Positions 2,764 through 11,997 of a DNA stretch of 12,403 nucleotides are shown piece after piece. The stretch covers positions 12,238 to 24,640 of the forward strand of contig JAHYJR010000010.1 of the NCBI GenBank assembly GCA_019429005.1, read 5' to 3'. The notes under the pieces were generated by a model. The model did not search any database, was not told the origin of the DNA, and saw nothing but the letters and a program-made list of their open reading frames with translations. The translations under genes were made by a program, and so were the position numbers. Source of the stretch: Nanobdellati archaeon (GTDB lineage Archaea > EX4484-52 > GLR71). Within the stretch, counting starts at the first letter, position 1. Every line of letters starts with the position of its first letter.

Positions 2764-4302
2764 TCACAAGAATGCCTCAACATCCTTATCATCCTTATCT
2801 TTCTTATCACTGAATTCAATGCAAGCATCTTCTAAGGTTGTAGAATGCACAGACTCTTTTGATTTCCTCTCACGAACTGTAATAAATACAGGATGATTAA
2901 CAGCAGCACCCACAATTATAGCATCCCCCGTCTGAAGTGACGGTATAGTCCTTACAACATTACTTGTCAGACCTTCACTAGTTTTTCCAATATGATCTAA
3001 ATCATACGGATTTGTGACACGAAGTATTATATGCGTATTACACTGCGATAAAGCCGTAGTTGAAAGATGAACTGGTCTCTGAGTAACAAGACAGAGACAT
3101 GCATTAAATTTACGACCTTCCCTTGCAATTTTTTCAATTATGGATTTTGAAATTGCATATTCTTTTCTGACCTTTTCAGGTGCAAAATTATGTGCTTCCT
3201 CAACAACAAAAAGAAATGGTGGAATTTTGCCAGACCGTCTTGAATCAAACATTCTTGATGCAATACTTGAAACAATTATCTGTCTTTTTCTAGTATCAAA
3301 AATATCACCAAAATCAAGGACAAGAACTTTTCCTTGCTTAATATCTTTAAACGCTGGATACTGCTCTTTAGCAAAAAGTTTCATTCGCTTAAGATTTCCA
3401 AGCAAAAGAGTAAGAAGATCTTTAACAGAATCTCTTGCAGACTCATCAGAAGAAACCGTTGAGATTATGTTATCAATATCATAACCGCCTTTCTCCTTGA
3501 ACGCTTCACGAACTTTACCTAAAGCTTTCTGAAGAACATGTTCATGTACTTCTTTCATAGATGAAAAAAAGCTAGAAACTTGAGATACACCCAAAGAATC
3601 AACAGGAAGTCTAATATCACTACCATTTATAACTTTGACTTTATTCACATATTTAGGATCAGAACCAAAAGACGAATATTCACCATGCGGATCTGCAATA
3701 ACAACTGCAACAGAACCTTGCTGTTTATCACGGTCTACAAGCTCTTCAAGAATAACAGATGTTAAATAGCTTTTACCCGCACCACTCATAGCAAGTATTG
3801 CAAAATGTTTCTGAAGAAGACGTGTCATATCAATTTTAGCATCAATATCCTGATATGCAACCGTACCTAAATTCAAACCATTTTCCATATTCAAACCAAG
3901 AAACTTAATTACCATTTCTTTTTTAGCAAGATATACAACATTTCCTGGTGATAAGGGTGATACTACCCTTTTTATAATGCCATCCTTATAAACACCAATA
4001 ATCTGAGCCATTGCAATAAAATATTCCCATCGTTTAACTGGAAAAACATCCTCAGCCAAAACATTATTTTTACTAAATTCACTTACAGATTCAGCACGTT
4101 CAAAATATCTATTTGCTTTTACAACTTCATCAACACGAGCCATAAGTGTACCTGACAACATTTGAACCTCAACAAACTGACCTTTTTTTATATCTGAATC
4201 TGAATTAATCACAAAATTAAAATTTATAGAAGATGGACCATCAACAGTTGAAATAACTGTGCCAATACCACTTGAAATTTTTAAAGAATCATTTTTATCC
4301 AT
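2764..4302 (-). CDS. herA: HerA-family hexameric DNA translocase ATPase
   Basis: This 512-aa protein has the HerA layout: an N-terminal beta-rich HAS-barrel region (about 8-125) and a RecA-like motor. Visible motifs are Walker A AMSGAGKS (171-178, K177), DPHGEYS (204-210), Walker B FLFVVEEAHNF (363-373, with E368/E369), REGRKF (394-399) and TQRP (407-410), followed by the family's LSQCNTHIILR segment (418-428). In archaea HerA forms a hexameric ring that pumps DNA and works with the nuclease NurA to resect DNA ends; a nurA-like gene lies two genes upstream. The C-terminus is acidic/Lys-rich. ATG at 4302 has no Shine-Dalgarno site, but a TATA-like box is centred 26 nt upstream, so the transcript may be leaderless and separate from the upstream genes. 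FtsK/TraG/VirB4 relatives fit less well than HerA. Confidence 0.96.
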   Translation of the reverse strand: MDKNDSLKISSGIGTVISTVDGPSSINFNFVINSDSDIKKGQFVEVQMLSGTLMARVDEVVKANRYFERAESVSEFSKNNVLAEDVFPVKRWEYFIAMAQIIGVYKDGIIKRVVSPLSPGNVVYLAKKEMVIKFLGLNMENGLNLGTVAYQDIDAKIDMTRLLQKHFAILAMSGAGKSYLTSVILEELVDRDKQQGSVAVVIADPHGEYSSFGSDPKYVNKVKVINGSDIRLPVDSLGVSQVSSFFSSMKEVHEHVLQKALGKVREAFKEKGGYDIDNIISTVSSDESARDSVKDLLTLLLGNLKRMKLFAKEQYPAFKDIKQGKVLVLDFGDIFDTRKRQIIVSSIASRMFDSRRSGKIPPFLFVVEEAHNFAPEKVRKEYAISKSIIEKIAREGRKFNACLCLVTQRPVHLSTTALSQCNTHIILRVTNPYDLDHIGKTSEGLTSNVVRTIPSLQTGDAIIVGAAVNHPVFITVRERKSKESVHSTTLEDACIEFSDKKDKDDKDVEAFL

Positions 4303-4321
4303 AACTATATTTATCTGAATG

Positions 4322-4333
4322 AAATTATATAAT
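4322..4333 (-). promoter_or_regulatory. TATA-like box of herA
   Basis: On the minus strand the core TTATATAA (4332-4325) is centred about 26 nt before the herA ATG at 4302, the spacing expected for a leaderless archaeal transcript. It directly abuts an inverted repeat at 4331-4347. Confidence 0.5.
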
Positions 4334-4347
4334 CATTTCGAATGATT
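4331..4347. repeat. Inverted repeat next to the herA TATA-like box, operator candidate
   Basis: AATCATT-TCG-AATGATT is a perfect 7-bp inverted repeat with a 3-bp centre. It lies between the stop of the upstream reading frame (4363) and the herA TATA-like box, where a regulator would interfere with TBP/TFB binding. A 3-nt loop and no following T-run argue against a transcription terminator. Regulation is inferred. Confidence 0.4.
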
Positions 4348-4362
4348 TAATAATAATTATAA

Positions 4363-4950
4363 TTACATTTTAGAATATTCGTTTTTAAGAAGTTCACCAA
4401 TAGTTTTTGGGCCATTTTTACTTATAAACTCTTCAGGTATCTCTATACCACTTATAAACTCGTTATTTTTCTTAAAAATATTACTACGCAAAAAATCTCC
4501 ATGTTTAGTTATTTTAGCAACAGAACTTATATCCTTCCTCTTTATATCAATAAGTTTTCTATCTTCAAGAGATTTTATGTCTGCACCAGTAAAATATTTT
4601 TTAACAAAATCAATATCAACAGAACAATCACCAGTATTTAACGGAAAATACAACAAAAACTCATTTGACTCATCCATATTTGGTAACATACTATCACCAT
4701 TATAACTTTCACGATATTTATCAAAAGGTGATTGTGATACAGCTCTTTCAACAAAAACATCTTCCGGTATATCTACATATTTAAAATTATTAGTATCTTT
4801 ACGTGTATACATTTTTGGATTTGAATACTTATTTTTAGTAGACACCTTACTTATAACAGGTTCAACTTTAACCTCAGGTTCAAAAACGTCTGATTCAACA
4901 AACTCTGGTTCAAAAGGCTCTGAAACATCTTCATCAACAAAAAGATCAAG
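4363..4950 (-). CDS. C-terminal continuation of the winged-helix protein after an in-frame TAA
   Basis: This frame is the direct in-phase continuation of the large upstream gene after its TAA at 4953-4951, and it stays open for 195 codons. The first 35 codons contain no ATG, GTG or TTG. The first usable starts are a GTG at 4845 (160 aa) and an ATG at 4812, both without a Shine-Dalgarno site. Those 35 codons encode an acidic linker with FEPEF, FEPEV and VEPVI motifs, resembling IIEPYEV just before the stop. The rest ends with a likely winged-helix module (DFVKKYFTGADIKSLEDRKL, residues 79-98 from the GTG). I read it as the C-terminal part of one protein of about 900 aa, split by a nonsense mutation, a sequence error or a readthrough codon. 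An independent 160-aa gene is the less likely alternative. Confidence 0.75.
   Translation of the reverse strand, partial: LDLFVDEDVSEPFEPEFVESDVFEPEVKVEPVISKVSTKNKYSNPKMYTRKDTNNFKYVDIPEDVFVERAVSQSPFDKYRESYNGDSMLPNMDESNEFLLYFPLNTGDCSVDIDFVKKYFTGADIKSLEDRKLIDIKRKDISSVAKITKHGDFLRSNIFKKNNEFISGIEIPEEFISKNGPKTIGELLKNEYSKM
4873..4932 (-). repeat. Two 30-bp imperfect tandem repeats encoding an acidic Glu-Pro linker
   Basis: Two adjacent 30-bp units (4873-4902 and 4903-4932) share the pattern CTCxGGTTCAAAA...TCTGA on the plus strand. On the coding strand they give EDVSEPFEPE and FVESDVFEPE. They lie just after the in-frame TAA. Because the repeat is at amino-acid level too, it suggests the segment was translated. 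Confidence 0.6.
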
Positions 4951-7080
4951 TTAGACTTCATAAGGCTCAATAATTGATTCAGTCTCAACAACAATACCAT
5001 CTACAATATCATAATCCTTAACTGACGAAGTTTTACGTTCATAATTATCATACACCTCTTTAAGATAAAGTATATACCGAGGTTTCAAAACAAAAGATTT
5101 GCTCCCCTTAGTGTCAGTATAAACTACATCTTTTTCAGATGAAATTTCAAATAAACCCGATTTTTCTAAAAAATCACCCGATTTAAAATCCAAATCCTTT
5201 ACTTGCTCTTTACCTAAAGTCTGTTCCATCCAAATTTTAATATATTTTTCACCACGATTTCTAAGAACCAATTCATAATCATTATGTAAAACCATTACAC
5301 CTTTTGAAAACAAATCATCTATAATATATGAAACCTGATGTAATGTCATAATTGATTTGAGATATTTTTTCAAATCATCCTTATAAACTGGGCCTTTAGA
5401 AGCCAAAAAATAATAGCCTAATACAGCTTTAAGTTCATTATCAAGCTGAACTTTACCCTTACTGTTCCTAAAAATAAGACCAAAATCATCACGTTTATTT
5501 CCTACATTTATATTGAGATAATCCATATTTTTTGAATTAAAAGCCTTTAAAATATATTCAATAGAATCATCATTATCATTATCATTATAATTATCATTAT
5601 CATTATCATTATAATTATCATTATCATTATCATCACTAATATCAATCATATTATAAGAAGTATCATCAGATTCAGACACACCAAACGATTCTGTATCACC
5701 TATAACAGTAGGATTCTCTTTTTTAATTTCAGAAAGATATGATCTAAATCTAATACCAGACTCTGTAAAATAAAAATTATCTACACCTTCCTTCTTAAAA
5801 TAACCGCGACGCATCATCTCACGGAATTTTGATGCTGAAATCAAATAACTATCATCTCCAGAATTAATAATTATCTGATCATTATGGCCTTTAGTAACAC
5901 TAAATTTATTATCAAGTGCTTCAAGAATACGACCATTTATACCCAAACATTTTCCTGAATCAGAATTATCTATTAATGATAGACTGACAGATTCACCTGA
6001 AATATCTAAAATTGTATTTAAATCAGTTTCAGACCATGTATCTTTTTTCGGACGATTTGCATCTTGATAATCTATAAAAGATTTAGGCGACTTTTGTGGA
6101 ATTATATTATCTAATTTATGATGCGTTTTTTTATTTACAACATCTTTAAAAAGATGATTCCCAGAATAACTAAAAGATTTTATATTTGCATCATCAACTA
6201 AAACCTTCATTTCATTCATATTTCCATCAATATAATTCAAAGCCTCAATTACATTTTCAGAGATTCCTTTTATTACAGAACCACTACCATTCATTTCAAA
6301 TAAATTTTTATCAAAAATGTTTAATACACTTTTACTAACCTTTCCTTTAAGATGCTTTTGAATAAATTTCTTTACATCACGAACATATACAACTTCATGT
6401 GTTTCAAGTAATTCTTTAATTAAGCGTATTGTAAAATATTCTGGATCCTCAATTAAATTTACAATATGGTCATGATTATCAAAGGGTCTACTTGTTTTAG
6501 AACAAACATTAAAAGACATACCATTACCAACAATTTCAAAATGATTTTTTAGTTTGGTTGGATTTATTGAAAAATGTGAAGACTTTATTTTTAAATTACG
6601 ATCCAATGTATATGTTTCAGAACTAATACCACTTACAGAATCATTATCATCAGAAACAGCTTTATCCTTAGAATACTCTAAAACCGCACAATAAGACCCT
6701 ATATCAATATTAGATTTGTCTGAATAATCAACAATAGATTTAGAACTAATTGACGGATCTTCAAGATTCAAAAATATTTTATAATCATCATGATTCTCTA
6801 CAAATGATAAAATCTTCGTCGCAACAACCCCATCTATAACATAATCATTTGTAATAAGGTTCTCTTTTTGTAACTTATTAAGTGCTTTCTTAATATCTTT
6901 CTTAGACATATCATATTTTTCAGCAATAAAATCTCTAAAATCCTTTTTAACACCCATATACCTTGAAACTTCAAAAAGTAAAGCAATCTCATCTTTAGAA
7001 CGTTCCGATAAAGAACTATCTATATAACTTAACATTTCACTTGAATATTTAGAAAGATCTTTAGTATTATCAGACACCAT
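4951..7080 (-). CDS. Large winged-helix-rich DNA-associated protein, ends at an in-frame TAA
   Basis: About 709 aa; no family recognised. It has several winged-helix-like segments, a helix-turn-helix followed by a hairpin: about residues 28-80 (FRDFIAEKYDMSKKDIKKAL), 214-271 (DVKKFIQKHLKGKVSKSVL) and 549-611 (DDLKKYLKSIMTLHQVSYII), and perhaps 416-450. Between these are polar, Asp/Ser/Asn-rich regions, including an Asn-Asp repeat at about 484-505. This suggests a DNA-binding or scaffolding partner of HerA and NurA, which is inference. I chose ATG at 7080 over an in-frame GTG at 7092 because of the standard codon and the spacing from the TATA-like box (7118-7127). The frame continues for 195 codons after the stop, so the product is probably meant to be about 905 aa. 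Confidence 0.85.
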   Translation of the reverse strand: MVSDNTKDLSKYSSEMLSYIDSSLSERSKDEIALLFEVSRYMGVKKDFRDFIAEKYDMSKKDIKKALNKLQKENLITNDYVIDGVVATKILSFVENHDDYKIFLNLEDPSISSKSIVDYSDKSNIDIGSYCAVLEYSKDKAVSDDNDSVSGISSETYTLDRNLKIKSSHFSINPTKLKNHFEIVGNGMSFNVCSKTSRPFDNHDHIVNLIEDPEYFTIRLIKELLETHEVVYVRDVKKFIQKHLKGKVSKSVLNIFDKNLFEMNGSGSVIKGISENVIEALNYIDGNMNEMKVLVDDANIKSFSYSGNHLFKDVVNKKTHHKLDNIIPQKSPKSFIDYQDANRPKKDTWSETDLNTILDISGESVSLSLIDNSDSGKCLGINGRILEALDNKFSVTKGHNDQIIINSGDDSYLISASKFREMMRRGYFKKEGVDNFYFTESGIRFRSYLSEIKKENPTVIGDTESFGVSESDDTSYNMIDISDDNDNDNYNDNDNDNYNDNDNDDSIEYILKAFNSKNMDYLNINVGNKRDDFGLIFRNSKGKVQLDNELKAVLGYYFLASKGPVYKDDLKKYLKSIMTLHQVSYIIDDLFSKGVMVLHNDYELVLRNRGEKYIKIWMEQTLGKEQVKDLDFKSGDFLEKSGLFEISSEKDVVYTDTKGSKSFVLKPRYILYLKEVYDNYERKTSSVKDYDIVDGIVVETESIIEPYEV
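5568..5634 (-). repeat. Hexanucleotide microsatellite coding for Asn-Asp repeats
   Basis: The plus strand carries repeated ATCATT hexamers, interrupted every 24 bp by a TATAATT variant. The product has the 8-residue period DNDNDNYN, about 2.5 times. A 6-bp unit keeps the reading frame when it gains or loses copies, so length variation would change only a flexible linker. Confidence 0.85.
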
Positions 7081-7117
7081 CAAACCAACCACACAATATT
7101 AATACAATATAGTAGCA

Positions 7118-7127
7118 AATTTATAAA
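7118..7127 (-). promoter_or_regulatory. TATA-like box of the winged-helix gene
   Basis: On the minus strand it reads TTTATAAATT, close to the archaeal consensus. It is centred about 30 nt before the GTG at 7092 and 42 nt before the ATG at 7080, giving a predicted leader of about 5 or 17 nt. It lies in the gap after nurA, just downstream of an inverted repeat. Confidence 0.5.
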
Positions 7128-7129
7128 CC

Positions 7130-7153
7130 TTATGTTAATTAAAAATAACATAA
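7130..7153. repeat. Inverted repeat between nurA and the winged-helix gene
   Basis: TTATGTTA (7130-7137) and TAACATAA (7146-7153) form a perfect 8-bp inverted repeat with an 8-nt A/T spacer. It begins 5 nt after the nurA stop and ends 2 nt before the TATA-like box of the next gene. It could be a hairpin ending nurA transcripts (the minus-strand loop contains TTTTT) or an operator. Confidence 0.45.
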
Positions 7154-7158
7154 ACCCA

Positions 7159-8259
7159 TTACAAAGGTCTACGATTACGTCTTAAATCAAAAATTCCAGG
7201 TAAATTACCAACAGATGAAAATATACTATTTTCAACAAAAGATATTTCCTGTTCATTTAATTTTGCTCTTAAATCTGCCTCAATTATCACAGATGGACAA
7301 CCATATGTTGTATTATGTGTAGATATTGCTAAAACATATGATGCAATATCTTTAGCACAGTTTAATACAATATCAGTATCATTTGTTTCTGAAAGAAAAT
7401 CAATCCTAATAGGACGATCAAATTCAACAGTCTTCATATAAAATGAATAAATATTATTTCCATTCTGACCAATATCTTTTAAAACAAGATTTTGGTCTGG
7501 TTTTTTTGAATACCTAAATACAAAAGACATCTCACCCTGTTTAAGAAGATAAAAAAGAAAATGTGTATCTTTAACAGTCTCAAGTATCGAAATATTGATA
7601 CTTAATTCAGTAGAACAAGATTTTATCAAATCCACACAAGTAGTACTCCGACTATCTTCAACAACACCTGCTAAATAAATATTTTTTTTAATTGACTTTT
7701 CATATAATGTTTTATACAATCGTACAATCTCAAGATAATCAGTATATAATTCAGAATCACTTTTTGGCCGTGATTGAGGGTGAGGTACAACAGAACCGTC
7801 AAGTAATAATATGTCGGGAGACCTACTAAGGGACTCTACTGCAATAGAAATCTCCTCATTAATTCTAAAAAGTGATGCTTTAATTGAAAAATCAGATTCA
7901 TACATTGGTCTATTAATTACAGATATTTTTGGTTCGTTAAATGTTCCAGGAATATACTGAGTATCATAAAGTTTACCATCCTTAAAATCAAATTTAACTG
8001 CAACAGCTCGTGTTAATATGATATCAATACCATGATATTCTTTCTTGATTAAACCACCATCTACACCAATATATGTTCTAGATTTAAGATCGTCAGGTAA
8101 AACAGTCCTAAAAAGCGATTTACTTATCACTTGAGAATCATTTTCTAATGTCAATTTATCTTTTTTAGACCTTATAATTTCAACTACAGATAAAACTGAT
8201 TTTTCCCAATCTTTAAGAGATTTACCAATATAATCTAGATCTTTAGAAATCATTGCCAT
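7159..8259 (-). CDS. nurA: NurA-family nuclease
   Basis: 366 aa from ATG 8259. NurA is a dimeric Mn-dependent nuclease that docks on the HerA ring and cuts DNA ends. The acidic motifs are present: D67 in YIGVDGG, a glutamate at 135/136 in RINEEIS, and D154 in LLLDGS. The sequence AGVVEDSRSTTC (198-209) and the C-terminal YGCPSVIIEAD (319-329) also follow the family pattern. In that last motif I recall Tyr and His in the family (YP...AH); here they are C321 and D329, so catalysis may be altered. A TTG at 8292, overlapping the upstream TGA, would add 11 hydrophobic residues. I preferred ATG 8259 because a natural NurA-like N-terminus starts there, but this is uncertain. The gene lies directly after the 276-aa gene. 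Confidence 0.88.
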   Translation of the reverse strand: MAMISKDLDYIGKSLKDWEKSVLSVVEIIRSKKDKLTLENDSQVISKSLFRTVLPDDLKSRTYIGVDGGLIKKEYHGIDIILTRAVAVKFDFKDGKLYDTQYIPGTFNEPKISVINRPMYESDFSIKASLFRINEEISIAVESLSRSPDILLLDGSVVPHPQSRPKSDSELYTDYLEIVRLYKTLYEKSIKKNIYLAGVVEDSRSTTCVDLIKSCSTELSINISILETVKDTHFLFYLLKQGEMSFVFRYSKKPDQNLVLKDIGQNGNNIYSFYMKTVEFDRPIRIDFLSETNDTDIVLNCAKDIASYVLAISTHNTTYGCPSVIIEADLRAKLNEQEISFVENSIFSSVGNLPGIFDLRRNRRPL

Positions 8260-8288
8260 AAATAAATATTGTAACTTGTATTTAAAAA

Positions 8289-9119
8289 TCAATCTAAAAT
8301 CGACATAATTTTATTATAAGAATCATCATCAGAAACGGCATGACGCACATATTCGGGAATATGATCATAGAGACCTTCCAAAACAATATTATCTCTTGTA
8401 TCATTAACACTTGAAACTAGACTTGCTGATGACTTTAAGATATCAAGGGAATTAAATTCATATGCAAATGTTCTGCAGATTTCAACACCATCTATACCAG
8501 CCATAATACCATTATATAAAAATAGATTAAATAACATCTCATTATAAAAACCATAAGCAAAAATAGATATATTATTCATGCAACTTATTGTATCCCTCTC
8601 AAGAGAAATACTCTTACGCTCATTTTCAGATAAATCTTTTTTAAGAATTTTGCCAAGACAATCAACATATACATAATTAAATCTATGATATTTATCAATT
8701 ACAGGTTTAAAAGACTCTAACTCTTGATATTTTTTATAAAATAAATTAACTGTTTTTGAACTTTTAACGTTCAAATAACTTAGAACAGGATCATCTACTA
8801 AACCAAGCATATCTGAAATCCTGTCTGAAGACAAATCTATATTATGTTCAAAAGATTCTCTAAGTTCCATCTGTATCGGAAAAATTAAAGGAAGATCACC
8901 TTTCAATGCAATTGTTTTGCAACCATCAAGAAGTTTCACATAATCATAATCATATTTAAGAGAATTCGATTTAACATCCCTATTAATCTCTTTCTTTAAT
9001 TGAAAAATATTGTTCTCAATATTTAAAATTATATCAATAAGCCTAAAAATATGATCAATATCAGAATAATAATTCTTTCTATTTAAAAAAAACTTAATAT
9101 CAGATTCATCTAAAAACAT
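8289..9119 (-). CDS. Unknown 276-aa helical protein of the HerA-NurA cluster
   Basis: Not recognised. The sequence is mostly helix-forming, with no membrane segment beyond a short hydrophobic patch (YGFYNEMLFNLFLYNGIMAG) and no visible nucleotide-binding or metal motif. The start is decided by the only clear Shine-Dalgarno site in the window: GGTGAT lies 7 nt before ATG 9119, which begins 1 nt after the TGA of the 656-aa gene. An in-frame ATG at 9137 would add six residues and overlap that gene, but would leave the site inside the coding region. The tight stop-restart arrangement suggests translational coupling and a matched amount with the 656-aa protein. The position just before nurA suggests a subunit of the same complex, which is inference. 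Confidence 0.85.
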   Translation of the reverse strand: MFLDESDIKFFLNRKNYYSDIDHIFRLIDIILNIENNIFQLKKEINRDVKSNSLKYDYDYVKLLDGCKTIALKGDLPLIFPIQMELRESFEHNIDLSSDRISDMLGLVDDPVLSYLNVKSSKTVNLFYKKYQELESFKPVIDKYHRFNYVYVDCLGKILKKDLSENERKSISLERDTISCMNNISIFAYGFYNEMLFNLFLYNGIMAGIDGVEICRTFAYEFNSLDILKSSASLVSSVNDTRDNIVLEGLYDHIPEYVRHAVSDDDSYNKIMSILD

Positions 9120-9120
9120 A

Positions 9121-11091
9121 TCAATTATCACCCACATACCCTAATCGAGATTCGTAAATACCTGCCATATACTCTATAACATCACTATTTATAACGATTT
9201 CATTTCCAACAATATTTTTTAAAAAACCTTCTTGCTTCAACAATTTTGATGATAATCCAAAATACTTTTTTAAATTAAGATCACTTTCAATTATTTTTGT
9301 AAAATTATTTTGAAATTGTGCACTATTGTGAGGTATATAACCTGTTATCTTGTAACCAGGAATATTCAACATTTTATTTGAATTTGAATCAAACGAAATT
9401 TGTGAAAGTTCATTATCTATAACTTCGAGCTTATTTAATTTTTCAATATTAGTACCAAACAATCTACTTCCTGACAAATAATTTTTATAATCTAAAATAG
9501 ATAAATATTCTCCATCCTCTTCAATAATACCTCGCCTAAACATATCTAAAATATTAAACGATTTTGATCGTTTTGCAAAATCATATTTATCTGAAAATAT
9601 TTTACACTGCGTATCAAGAAAATCTTTCACACAAGTTATATTATAATTTGAAAAAGATACATTGTTACTTAACAAACCTTTCAATTCAATAAATATCTTA
9701 GACAACTCACAGACACCTGTTGTACCAATAAAATAAAGATCAAGCAAAGCATCTTGTTCCTGCTCAAGACCATATGTAAATTTTGATATATCATTTACAA
9801 TATAAATTGGTACAGACATTGTTGACATTTTATCTATCTGAGAACGCCAGGTTTCCATCGAAATTGTGTACACATCAATATCCTGCAAACCTGCTTTTTT
9901 TTTCAAAATATCTAACATAGCAAGATCACCTACGCCATCAGTCACAATTTTTATAAACGCGGTAGGTCTTGAAACCATATCATAACGACTAACACCTTGT
10001 GAATCCAAGATCATCATATCAGAAGGTGTATCTAAAATATGTGCTTCTGAAGATTTACACAAATTAATAAGATTGCCATCTAATTTTTCAACAAGTGGTT
10101 TAAAAAAAGATATTTTTTCATATCCATGATTAACAATGATATTATCTTTAATACACCGTCCTTTATTATCAAAATCAAATTTTGTACCTTTTACTATTAT
10201 TTCAGTATCAAGACCAAAACCAGATAAAACAGATTTTAAAGGATTAATAAGTAATTTTGCACTCAAATGCTCAGAAAGAGTTGTGAAAAAAAAAACATCA
10301 ACACCAAGTACAGATTGAATAAATACATTATATGCAAACGAATCTGAAATCGGACATTTATCTTGATGTTTCATATTATTATAGACCATATCAAGCACAA
10401 TAGAAAGATAATTCATATCTGAATTTTTCTCTCCAAAATTATAATAATCAAAAAAACCACTTTTAAGTTCTTCAGACACCTTAAATAATAAATCGTTATT
10501 TATAATACCATAATCATTTATCATACTATCCTTACTATTTGATTTTGGAATTTCACTTAAATTATATTTTTCAAGAAGAGGTACTATAGAATCAAATTTG
10601 CCGTGAGTAAAACCAACATCTGCAAAACCCATAAATGAATTATTCGGATTAAAATGATTAACCGTTAAATTACATCCATTCTTAGTAAAAACCCCATCAA
10701 AATCACAAAATGCCGTTCCATGCAAAGATAATAATCCATTATTCTCTAAATCTTCAATTGCCTTAGTATCATAATAAAGTATTGAATCAGACTTGTTTAT
10801 TGAACTAATATTTTCAGAAGTCATCTTTTTATCAGTCTTCAAAAATTCAAGAAGTGGTGTTCCACCATCAATCCAATGTAAAGCCTGTTTTTTTCCTGAA
10901 GACATAAGATTACTTCGCTTTTTAATAATCTTATCCCTAATCTTTAACAATGACTCAACGTCTTTTTCAACATTTGATATAACACAAAAACCAGAATCCT
11001 TTGAAAGATCCAAACGTTCTTTTAAGACAGACGAATTTAATCTGTTTACTCCATTTAGGAGCTTATTAAAAGATTTTTTAGCATCGGCCAA
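9121..11091 (-). CDS. Unknown 656-aa protein of the HerA-NurA cluster, weak Toprim-like segment
   Basis: Not recognised. It has no membrane segment and no P-loop. Residues 377-455 have an alternating strand-helix look (FIKIVTDGVGDLAMLDIL, then VPIYIVNDISKFTYG) that recalls the Toprim fold of the Spo11/topoisomerase VI A subunit, but the expected Glu is Asp and the Asp-x-Asp is incomplete, so this is only a hint. Conspicuous Gly/Asp motifs are WIDGGTP (73-79) and CDFDG (129-133). The only in-frame start is TTG 11091. An ATG at 11101 is out of frame by one base across a run of eight T, so the true start may be hidden by an indel. It lies 42 nt after the 287-aa gene, and the 276-aa gene starts 1 nt after its stop. 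Confidence 0.85.
   Translation of the reverse strand: MADAKKSFNKLLNGVNRLNSSVLKERLDLSKDSGFCVISNVEKDVESLLKIRDKIIKKRSNLMSSGKKQALHWIDGGTPLLEFLKTDKKMTSENISSINKSDSILYYDTKAIEDLENNGLLSLHGTAFCDFDGVFTKNGCNLTVNHFNPNNSFMGFADVGFTHGKFDSIVPLLEKYNLSEIPKSNSKDSMINDYGIINNDLLFKVSEELKSGFFDYYNFGEKNSDMNYLSIVLDMVYNNMKHQDKCPISDSFAYNVFIQSVLGVDVFFFTTLSEHLSAKLLINPLKSVLSGFGLDTEIIVKGTKFDFDNKGRCIKDNIIVNHGYEKISFFKPLVEKLDGNLINLCKSSEAHILDTPSDMMILDSQGVSRYDMVSRPTAFIKIVTDGVGDLAMLDILKKKAGLQDIDVYTISMETWRSQIDKMSTMSVPIYIVNDISKFTYGLEQEQDALLDLYFIGTTGVCELSKIFIELKGLLSNNVSFSNYNITCVKDFLDTQCKIFSDKYDFAKRSKSFNILDMFRRGIIEEDGEYLSILDYKNYLSGSRLFGTNIEKLNKLEVIDNELSQISFDSNSNKMLNIPGYKITGYIPHNSAQFQNNFTKIIESDLNLKKYFGLSSKLLKQEGFLKNIVGNEIVINSDVIEYMAGIYESRLGYVGDN
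9127..9132 (-). promoter_or_regulatory. Shine-Dalgarno site GGTGAT for the 276-aa gene
   Basis: On the minus strand GGTGAT is a six-base match to the usual archaeal 16S anti-Shine-Dalgarno end, 7 nt before ATG 9119. It lies inside the last codons of the 656-aa gene. It is the only clear site of this kind in the window and fixes the downstream start. Confidence 0.65.
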
Positions 11092-11133
11092 AAAAAACCA
11101 TCTTAAGATATATATTTAATATAAAAATACATT

Positions 11134-11997
11134 TCATTGATATTTAGATATCTTACTACCTGTCTGTATATCTAAAAATGAAGACTCATAAAGATTCTGT
11201 ATAAATACATCAAAATTTTGAGGATTAGGCATATCAGATTTTTTACATGGAAAAAACATTGCAAGATCAATCTCTTCTTCACGTTTTTTTGTAAGTCTCT
11301 GACCTCCTGATGTTCTAACATAAGGACTTCCAATAAATAAATTTGGATTAATAAAAACCCTATAATCATCAATTGGTTCTGGAACATGTATACTTAATAT
11401 ATCATGACCCAAACTCTCTGTAAGATATTTTATATCAGGACTATCAGAACCTTTATAAACATTATTTTCAAGAAGAAAGATTGTACGTGCTTCGGGACTA
11501 AGCTTATCCATTACATAAGGGAAAAAATCACACATTTTTGTTTTCTTATCCTCTTTTGCAGATTCAATAAAAATTTTACCTATACCCCTCTTAATCATTC
11601 TATGTAATTCTTTTGATTCATTAGTACTCCCATTTATAACATTTAACATAGACCTTTCTAACAAATCAAGTGTACAATAGTATTGTGATGTTACAAGTAC
11701 ATTTTTAGGTATTTTTTTATGACTTATAGCAATATCTATAAAAGGAATATCTTTGATATCTGTATTACTATTAAAATAATTAAGTCCTTTCAAAATCAAA
11801 ATATCATCATCATCTATTTTTTTGGTTTGTTTAGAATCAAGACCATAATACAGATTATCCTTAAATGCCTGATATTTCCGTTCAATCTGTCTAGATTTTT
11901 CTTTATCAAAAAATAAAGAGGTCTCAAAAAGAACAATAACTCCACATCCATTTTTACCTAACAAATCCGTAATTATACTTGAGTCACAAATAGACAT
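11134..11997 (-). CDS. Unknown 287-aa protein, first gene of the HerA-NurA cluster
   Basis: Not recognised. It is a soluble protein with a hydrophobic beta-like N-terminal segment (GCGVIVLFETSLFF, about residues 17-30), a charged middle, and conserved-looking patches ARTIFLLENN and FIGSPYVRTSGGQR in the C-terminal half. No nucleotide-binding, nuclease or membrane motif is visible. ATG 11997 has no Shine-Dalgarno site; a TTTATATAAA box is centred about 43 nt upstream, giving a short predicted leader of about 18 nt. As the first gene after a long non-coding region, it probably heads the operon that continues with the 656-aa, 276-aa and nurA genes. Its role in the module is unknown. Confidence 0.82.
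   Translation of the reverse strand: MSICDSSIITDLLGKNGCGVIVLFETSLFFDKEKSRQIERKYQAFKDNLYYGLDSKQTKKIDDDDILILKGLNYFNSNTDIKDIPFIDIAISHKKIPKNVLVTSQYYCTLDLLERSMLNVINGSTNESKELHRMIKRGIGKIFIESAKEDKKTKMCDFFPYVMDKLSPEARTIFLLENNVYKGSDSPDIKYLTESLGHDILSIHVPEPIDDYRVFINPNLFIGSPYVRTSGGQRLTKKREEEIDLAMFFPCKKSDMPNPQNFDVFIQNLYESSFLDIQTGSKISKYQ

Follow-up and report, generated by a model that had tools for sequence, protein, structure and literature searches.

A block of genes encoding a 656-aa protein, a 282-aa protein, the nuclease NurA and a winged-helix-like protein is conserved in one archaeal family, and this block is what is new at the locus described here. The gene cluster that contains it is probably an operon of the cell's own HerA-NurA end-resection machine, extended by accessory genes found in this family only. 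HerA is a hexameric dsDNA translocase and NurA is a dimeric nuclease; in hyperthermophiles, they are known to resect DNA as part of a four-protein system that includes Mre11-Rad50. The host is a small-genome, symbiont-type DPANN archaeon related to the Nanohaloarchaeota. The analysed window, meaning the whole stretch of 12,403 nucleotides, covers the end of contig C1 in a genome of 1.08 Mb and 15 contigs (93.6% complete). The genes of the cluster are transcribed on the minus strand in the order 287 aa, 656 aa, 282 aa, NurA, 713 aa, 160 aa and HerA:

11134..11997, minus strand: 287-aa protein, no family, no convincing relative
9121..11091, minus strand: 656-aa protein, HAD-like motifs and a helical C-terminal half; specific to the archaeal family; upstream of the 282-aa gene and nurA
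8289..9137, minus strand: 282-aa protein, rapidly diverging; invariably sits between the 656-aa gene and nurA, immediately after the former
7159..8292, minus strand: NurA nuclease (Pfam PF09376)
4951..7092, minus strand: 713-aa protein, several winged-helix-like stretches (Pfam sub-threshold) and acidic linkers; own genome only
4951..4953, minus strand: TAA between the 713-aa and 160-aa ORFs (reading-frame comparison)
4363..4845, minus strand: 160-aa ORF in the frame of the 713-aa ORF; C-terminal part homologous to the post-nurA protein of relatives
2764..4302, minus strand: HerA hexameric DNA translocase/ATPase (DUF87, Walker A/B motifs)

About 40 nt separate the 287-aa and 656-aa genes, and the 282-aa ORF overlaps the 656-aa ORF by 17 nt and nurA by 4 nt. 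Gaps of 66 nt and 60 nt separate nurA from the 713-aa ORF and the 160-aa ORF from herA, respectively. On its other side, the cluster is flanked by an ABC transporter and a VanZ-type gene. Because the window ends where contig C1 ends, the 5' side of the operon is out of view. The original prediction of HerA and NurA among co-directional uncharacterised genes was borne out, with four or five such ORFs on one strand. Its nearly contiguous pair of 656-aa and 276-aa genes with nurA close behind was also recovered, except that the second ORF (9137-8289) is 282 aa long.

The identities and key motifs of NurA and HerA were observed directly. NurA scored 60.6 bits with PF09376 against a Pfam cut-off of 21, and its acidic residues D67, E136, D202, D231, D281, and D329 are invariant across 19 archaeal NurAs. 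By comparison with relatives, its start is more likely nearer 8259 than 8292. HerA matched DUF87 above the Pfam cut-off (E 3e-33, 116 bits) and carries the Walker A motif AMSGAGKS and the Walker B motif FVVEEAH. Its match to the HAS-barrel was sub-threshold (16.4 bits, Pfam cut-off 25.2). It is 52–55% identical to HerA of family members and about 40–47% identical to HerA adjoining nurA in many DPANN loci. Judged from its sequence, it is an orthologue of the nurA-adjacent HerA of many DPANN archaea. In NCBIfam, the housekeeping HerA model ranked above the anti-phage HerA models. Since NurA is single copy in the genome and HerA is an orthologue of the nurA-adjacent type, the pair is best read as the housekeeping resection pair.

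The genome has no second nurA locus; a second HerA-like gene lies on contig C11. This gene (L046:8913-11712) encodes 663 aa and is followed by a small calcineurin-type phosphoesterase (metallophosphoesterase), and the two may form a HerA pair of their own. Throughout the order there are HerAs comparable in length (about 600–670 aa). There are further HerA-like ATPases in the genome: C15 encodes one, and on C8 two lie at the ends of very long putative surface proteins. A single ORF of 12,145 aa on C8 (C8:15695-52129, L041-L043) is N/T/S-rich; near its C-terminus is a membrane segment, and a HerA-like ATPase (GSTGSGKS) comes after this segment. The gene after this ORF encodes 1,393 aa with a closely similar ATPase tail. 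These long ORFs may be read as encoding giant surface proteins that carry a HerA-type motor on the cytoplasmic side. Two other genomes, G003 and G007, also have long frames with HerA-like matches.

The gene order and its conservation were likewise observed directly. The 656-282-nurA block was found at nine loci from eight of the nine genomes of the archaeal family. The three genes are contiguous in G000, G001 (on two contigs), G002, G004, G006, and G007. In G005, an inserted 163-aa gene separates nurA from the 282-aa gene, and the contig of G003 holds the 656-282 pair and ends before nurA. Profile search with the 656-aa family detected it in eight of the nine family genomes and in none of the other approximately 385 (394 archaeal genomes in all), which include 25 genomes of the same order. 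No match to this family was found in viral contigs. Among the relatives found with NurA, the named ones are the DPANN/Nanohaloarchaea metagenome genomes GLR72, KA24, CSMAG_1348, CSMAG_1734, and RS_11_38. CSMAG_1734 (G001) holds two different 656-282-nurA modules (L123 and L105), which may reflect a real duplication or a mixed bin. The neighbourhood check therefore upholds the pair with nurA as a conserved unit. The broader expectation that all six genes co-occur was confirmed only in part. The 656-aa and 282-aa genes, nurA and the winged-helix-like C-terminus after nurA recur in relatives, but the 287-aa and 713-aa genes do not, and herA is outside the cluster there.

The gene upstream of the 656-aa gene encodes a protein of 117–137 aa in most relatives, whereas it encodes the 287-aa protein here. 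The protein of the relatives looks OB-fold-like, a fold guessed by eye for a protein that has no Pfam match. Elsewhere in the family and order, the 287-aa protein had no counterpart beyond one marginal match in G032 (E 0.004). On the downstream side, herA is absent from the block in relatives. In the genus g3, it lies elsewhere, after a Cas4-like PD-(D/E)XK gene. Among 80 nurA loci, 29 hold herA, and herA closely follows nurA in many other DPANN loci; the nurA-herA linkage seen here may therefore be ancestral. The Cas4-like gene, which encodes 205 aa, precedes herA at L089-L093 (G005, G003, G004, G002, and G008; Cas_Cas4 E 8e-10 in L089), and its product is a possible alternative nuclease partner of HerA in family members.

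The identities between this genome and its relatives are 52–55% for HerA, 49% for Mre11, 44% for Rad50, and 36–41% for NurA, whereas they are only 17–23% for the 656-aa and 282-aa proteins. The three genes of the block are thus kept together despite about 80% sequence divergence, which argues for a functional link. The order could instead have been merely retained by vertical descent, with the 656/282 pair functionally unrelated to NurA. Small genomes keep their gene order, and the order is common mainly to the one genus g3. The 163-aa insertion before nurA in G005 also implies that strict contiguity is unnecessary. However, the remaining neighbours differ from genus to genus, with the 287-aa or the OB-fold-like protein upstream and herA or membrane proteins downstream, and the block stays together despite its divergence. 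Such passive retention keeps some weight but is considered unlikely.

A winged-helix-rich protein of up to about 905 aa had been predicted. The winged-helix-like region exists, but it is not a single ORF. It consists of 713 aa, one TAA (4951-4953), 35 open codons and 160 aa in the same frame. The acidic sequence of the 35 open codons continues that before the TAA. The TAA may be the true end of a two-gene arrangement, a nonsense mutation or an assembly error. Relatives have a protein of 314–326 aa after nurA, and the end of this protein is homologous to the winged-helix-like C-terminal part of the 160-aa ORF (hmmsearch E 1.2e-10). Counterparts of the 713-aa protein were searched for in the rest of the archaeal family and none were found.

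Searches of Pfam, NCBIfam, PADLOC, PHROGs and PDB sequences gave nothing usable or above cut-off for the uncharacterised ORFs of the window. The 282-aa protein had no Pfam match and no credible NCBIfam match. The 656-aa protein had no Pfam, NCBIfam or PDB sequence match, and no HAD model was among its Pfam matches at E<=10. The alignment of its nine family members, which are about 20% identical, has 31 invariant columns. Among them are D130xD132 (pattern hhhhDxDx[TV]), T271xS273 (hhh[ST]), and D385 and D389 of [ST]D385xxxD389 ([GS]DxxxD), whose order fits HAD motifs I, II, and IV. A lysine expected for motif III is present in the region in most members (GPKK / FFKP), without exact alignment. 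The strict HAD signature matched four family members, none of 916 other ORFs (920 distinct) and none of 2000 shuffles; it missed four of the nine members. Strands are predicted before motifs I, II, and IV in low-confidence AlphaFold models. The models of the whole protein (pLDDT 34) and of the motif-bearing domain of the GLR72 homologue (pLDDT 44) were too poor to interpret. Foldseek and VIA-align with the latter model gave unrelated Rossmann-like matches, none of them significant and none a HAD. In hhalign, the family reached about 3% probability against two small HAD alignments, with motif I placed correctly. The protein may be called HAD-like by motif only.

Ordinary HAD hydrolases of other families adjoin nurA in five DPANN loci (L104, L111, L158, L169, and L181), three of which (L158, L169, and L181) have the order nurA-HAD-herA. 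They also lie beside nurA in the family f3 (L053, L057, and L060). About 270-aa genes without a Pfam match are located between nurA and rad50 in the same family (L053:10025-11668, L057:8417-9238, L060:3571-4371). Their homology to the 282-aa protein was tested and none was detectable. In the 80 nurA loci, five of ten recognised HADs are immediate neighbours of nurA (hypergeometric p 0.0035), a value from a test made after the pattern was seen, with genomes that are not independent (L158 and L181 belong to the same group) and neighbour slots from a mechanical ORF list. A PF00702 scan of 65 archaea gave no HAD adjacent to nurA among the matches listed. The adjacency of HAD and nurA is a lead, not a result. 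A bolder proposal makes the 656/282 pair a new kind of subunit dedicated to HerA-NurA, in which a HAD phosphatase docks on the resection machine and cleans ends or salvages nucleotides. It further supposes that DPANN lineages recruited unrelated HAD phosphatases to nurA-herA several times independently. This proposal is doubtful. If it is true, phosphatase coupling would be a general, unrecognised feature of resection in DPANN archaea.

An anti-element defence module had been offered as one option in the original prediction. HerA and NurA would then act as motor and nuclease against invading DNA, and the 656/282 pair would be the invader sensor or effector. The two proteins diverge far more than NurA, Mre11/Rad50 and HerA, as genes in an arms race can, and HerA matches the general PADLOC HerA models. 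However, no partner has a credible PADLOC match (one chance match, E 0.51), and in NCBIfam the anti-phage HerA models rank below the housekeeping one. Inheritance of the block extends across one family and is not patchy, and viral contigs gave no match to the 656-aa family. In addition, the genome has no NurA besides this one, the HerA of the cluster is a housekeeping-type protein, and Mre11-Rad50 is present. On this evidence, the defence option is quite improbable.

The cluster was also said to have no Mre11-Rad50. This holds inside the window but is wrong at the genome level, where both genes were observed directly. The Rad50 gene is at C9:4299-6566 on the minus strand, with its start 168 bases from the end of C9, and its product is 44% identical to Rad50 of G002. 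The Mre11 gene is at C7:165-1370, also on the minus strand, with its end about 140 bases from the start of C7, and its product is 49% identical to Mre11 of G007. Both genes lie at contig ends on the minus strand, and so an ordinary mre11-rad50 operon was probably split by an assembly gap. Linkage of mre11 or rad50 to herA or nurA is absent in the window and on contig C1; in two relatives (G002 and G004), rad50 is about 7 kb from the nurA block. The linkage is usual in hyperthermophiles, as a common arrangement and not a requirement for function. A divergent repair machine in which the partners stand in for Mre11-Rad50 was suggested by the absence of these genes from the window, but with mre11 on C7 and rad50 on C9 such replacement is ruled out and retains practically no probability.

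The preferred reading sees the partners as probable lineage-specific accessories to resection by HerA-NurA, and not as a new defence system. Archaea use HerA-NurA together with Mre11-Rad50 to resect breaks (PMC5715905). In the proposed operon, HerA and NurA would resect broken ends with Mre11-Rad50 encoded elsewhere in the genome. The HAD-like 656-aa protein and the 282-aa protein would be made together with NurA and would probably bind it, a putative link drawn from gene order only. Most likely, the 656-aa protein would serve as a phosphohydrolase whose substrates are blocked DNA ends or nucleotides released by NurA. The 282-aa protein may be an adaptor tethering the 656-aa protein, and the winged-helix-like protein encoded downstream would have a DNA-contacting or regulatory role in the unit. 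A conserved, fast-evolving phosphatase-like pair beside nurA would add a new accessory to archaeal break repair. The pair would also give a testable reason for the recurrence of HAD phosphatases beside nurA in DPANN archaea, namely the cleaning of blocked ends or the removal of nucleotide products. No publication connecting a HAD protein with HerA-NurA turned up in a literature search, and a paper on the Nanohaloarchaeota (PMC9563170) does not mention HerA/NurA.

The locus can be compared with four known systems. Bacterial HerA anti-phage systems (Sir2-HerA, DUF4297-HerA, and NurA-HerA) also join a HerA motor to a nuclease partner. In contrast, the present cluster has no PADLOC partner such as Sir2 or DUF4297, is inherited with the lineage and contains the housekeeping copy of HerA/NurA. 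The 656-aa protein shares with HAD superfamily phosphatases of the C1-cap type the order and invariance of motifs I (DxD), II (T/S), and IV (DxxxD). It differs from them in that its motifs I and II are about 140 residues apart, its C-terminal half is large and helical, and it has no profile match. The nurA-HAD-herA loci of other DPANN archaea (L158, L169, and L181; HAD by nurA also in L104, L111, and L053) are comparable in that a HAD hydrolase gene adjoins nurA, in three of them between nurA and herA. However, their HADs are 220–270 aa long, belong to recognised families (Hydrolase_6 confirmed for L053 and L104) and have no detectable homology to the 656-aa protein, and these loci are without the 282-aa partner. 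With the HerA-NurA/Mre11-Rad50 system of Sulfolobus, Pyrococcus and Thermococcus, the cluster shares the same HerA and NurA families and motifs, nurA upstream of herA on one strand, and Mre11-Rad50 in the genome. On the other hand, mre11-rad50 is located outside the cluster here, and four to five ORFs without an assigned family are interleaved, three of which are conserved with nurA in the family.
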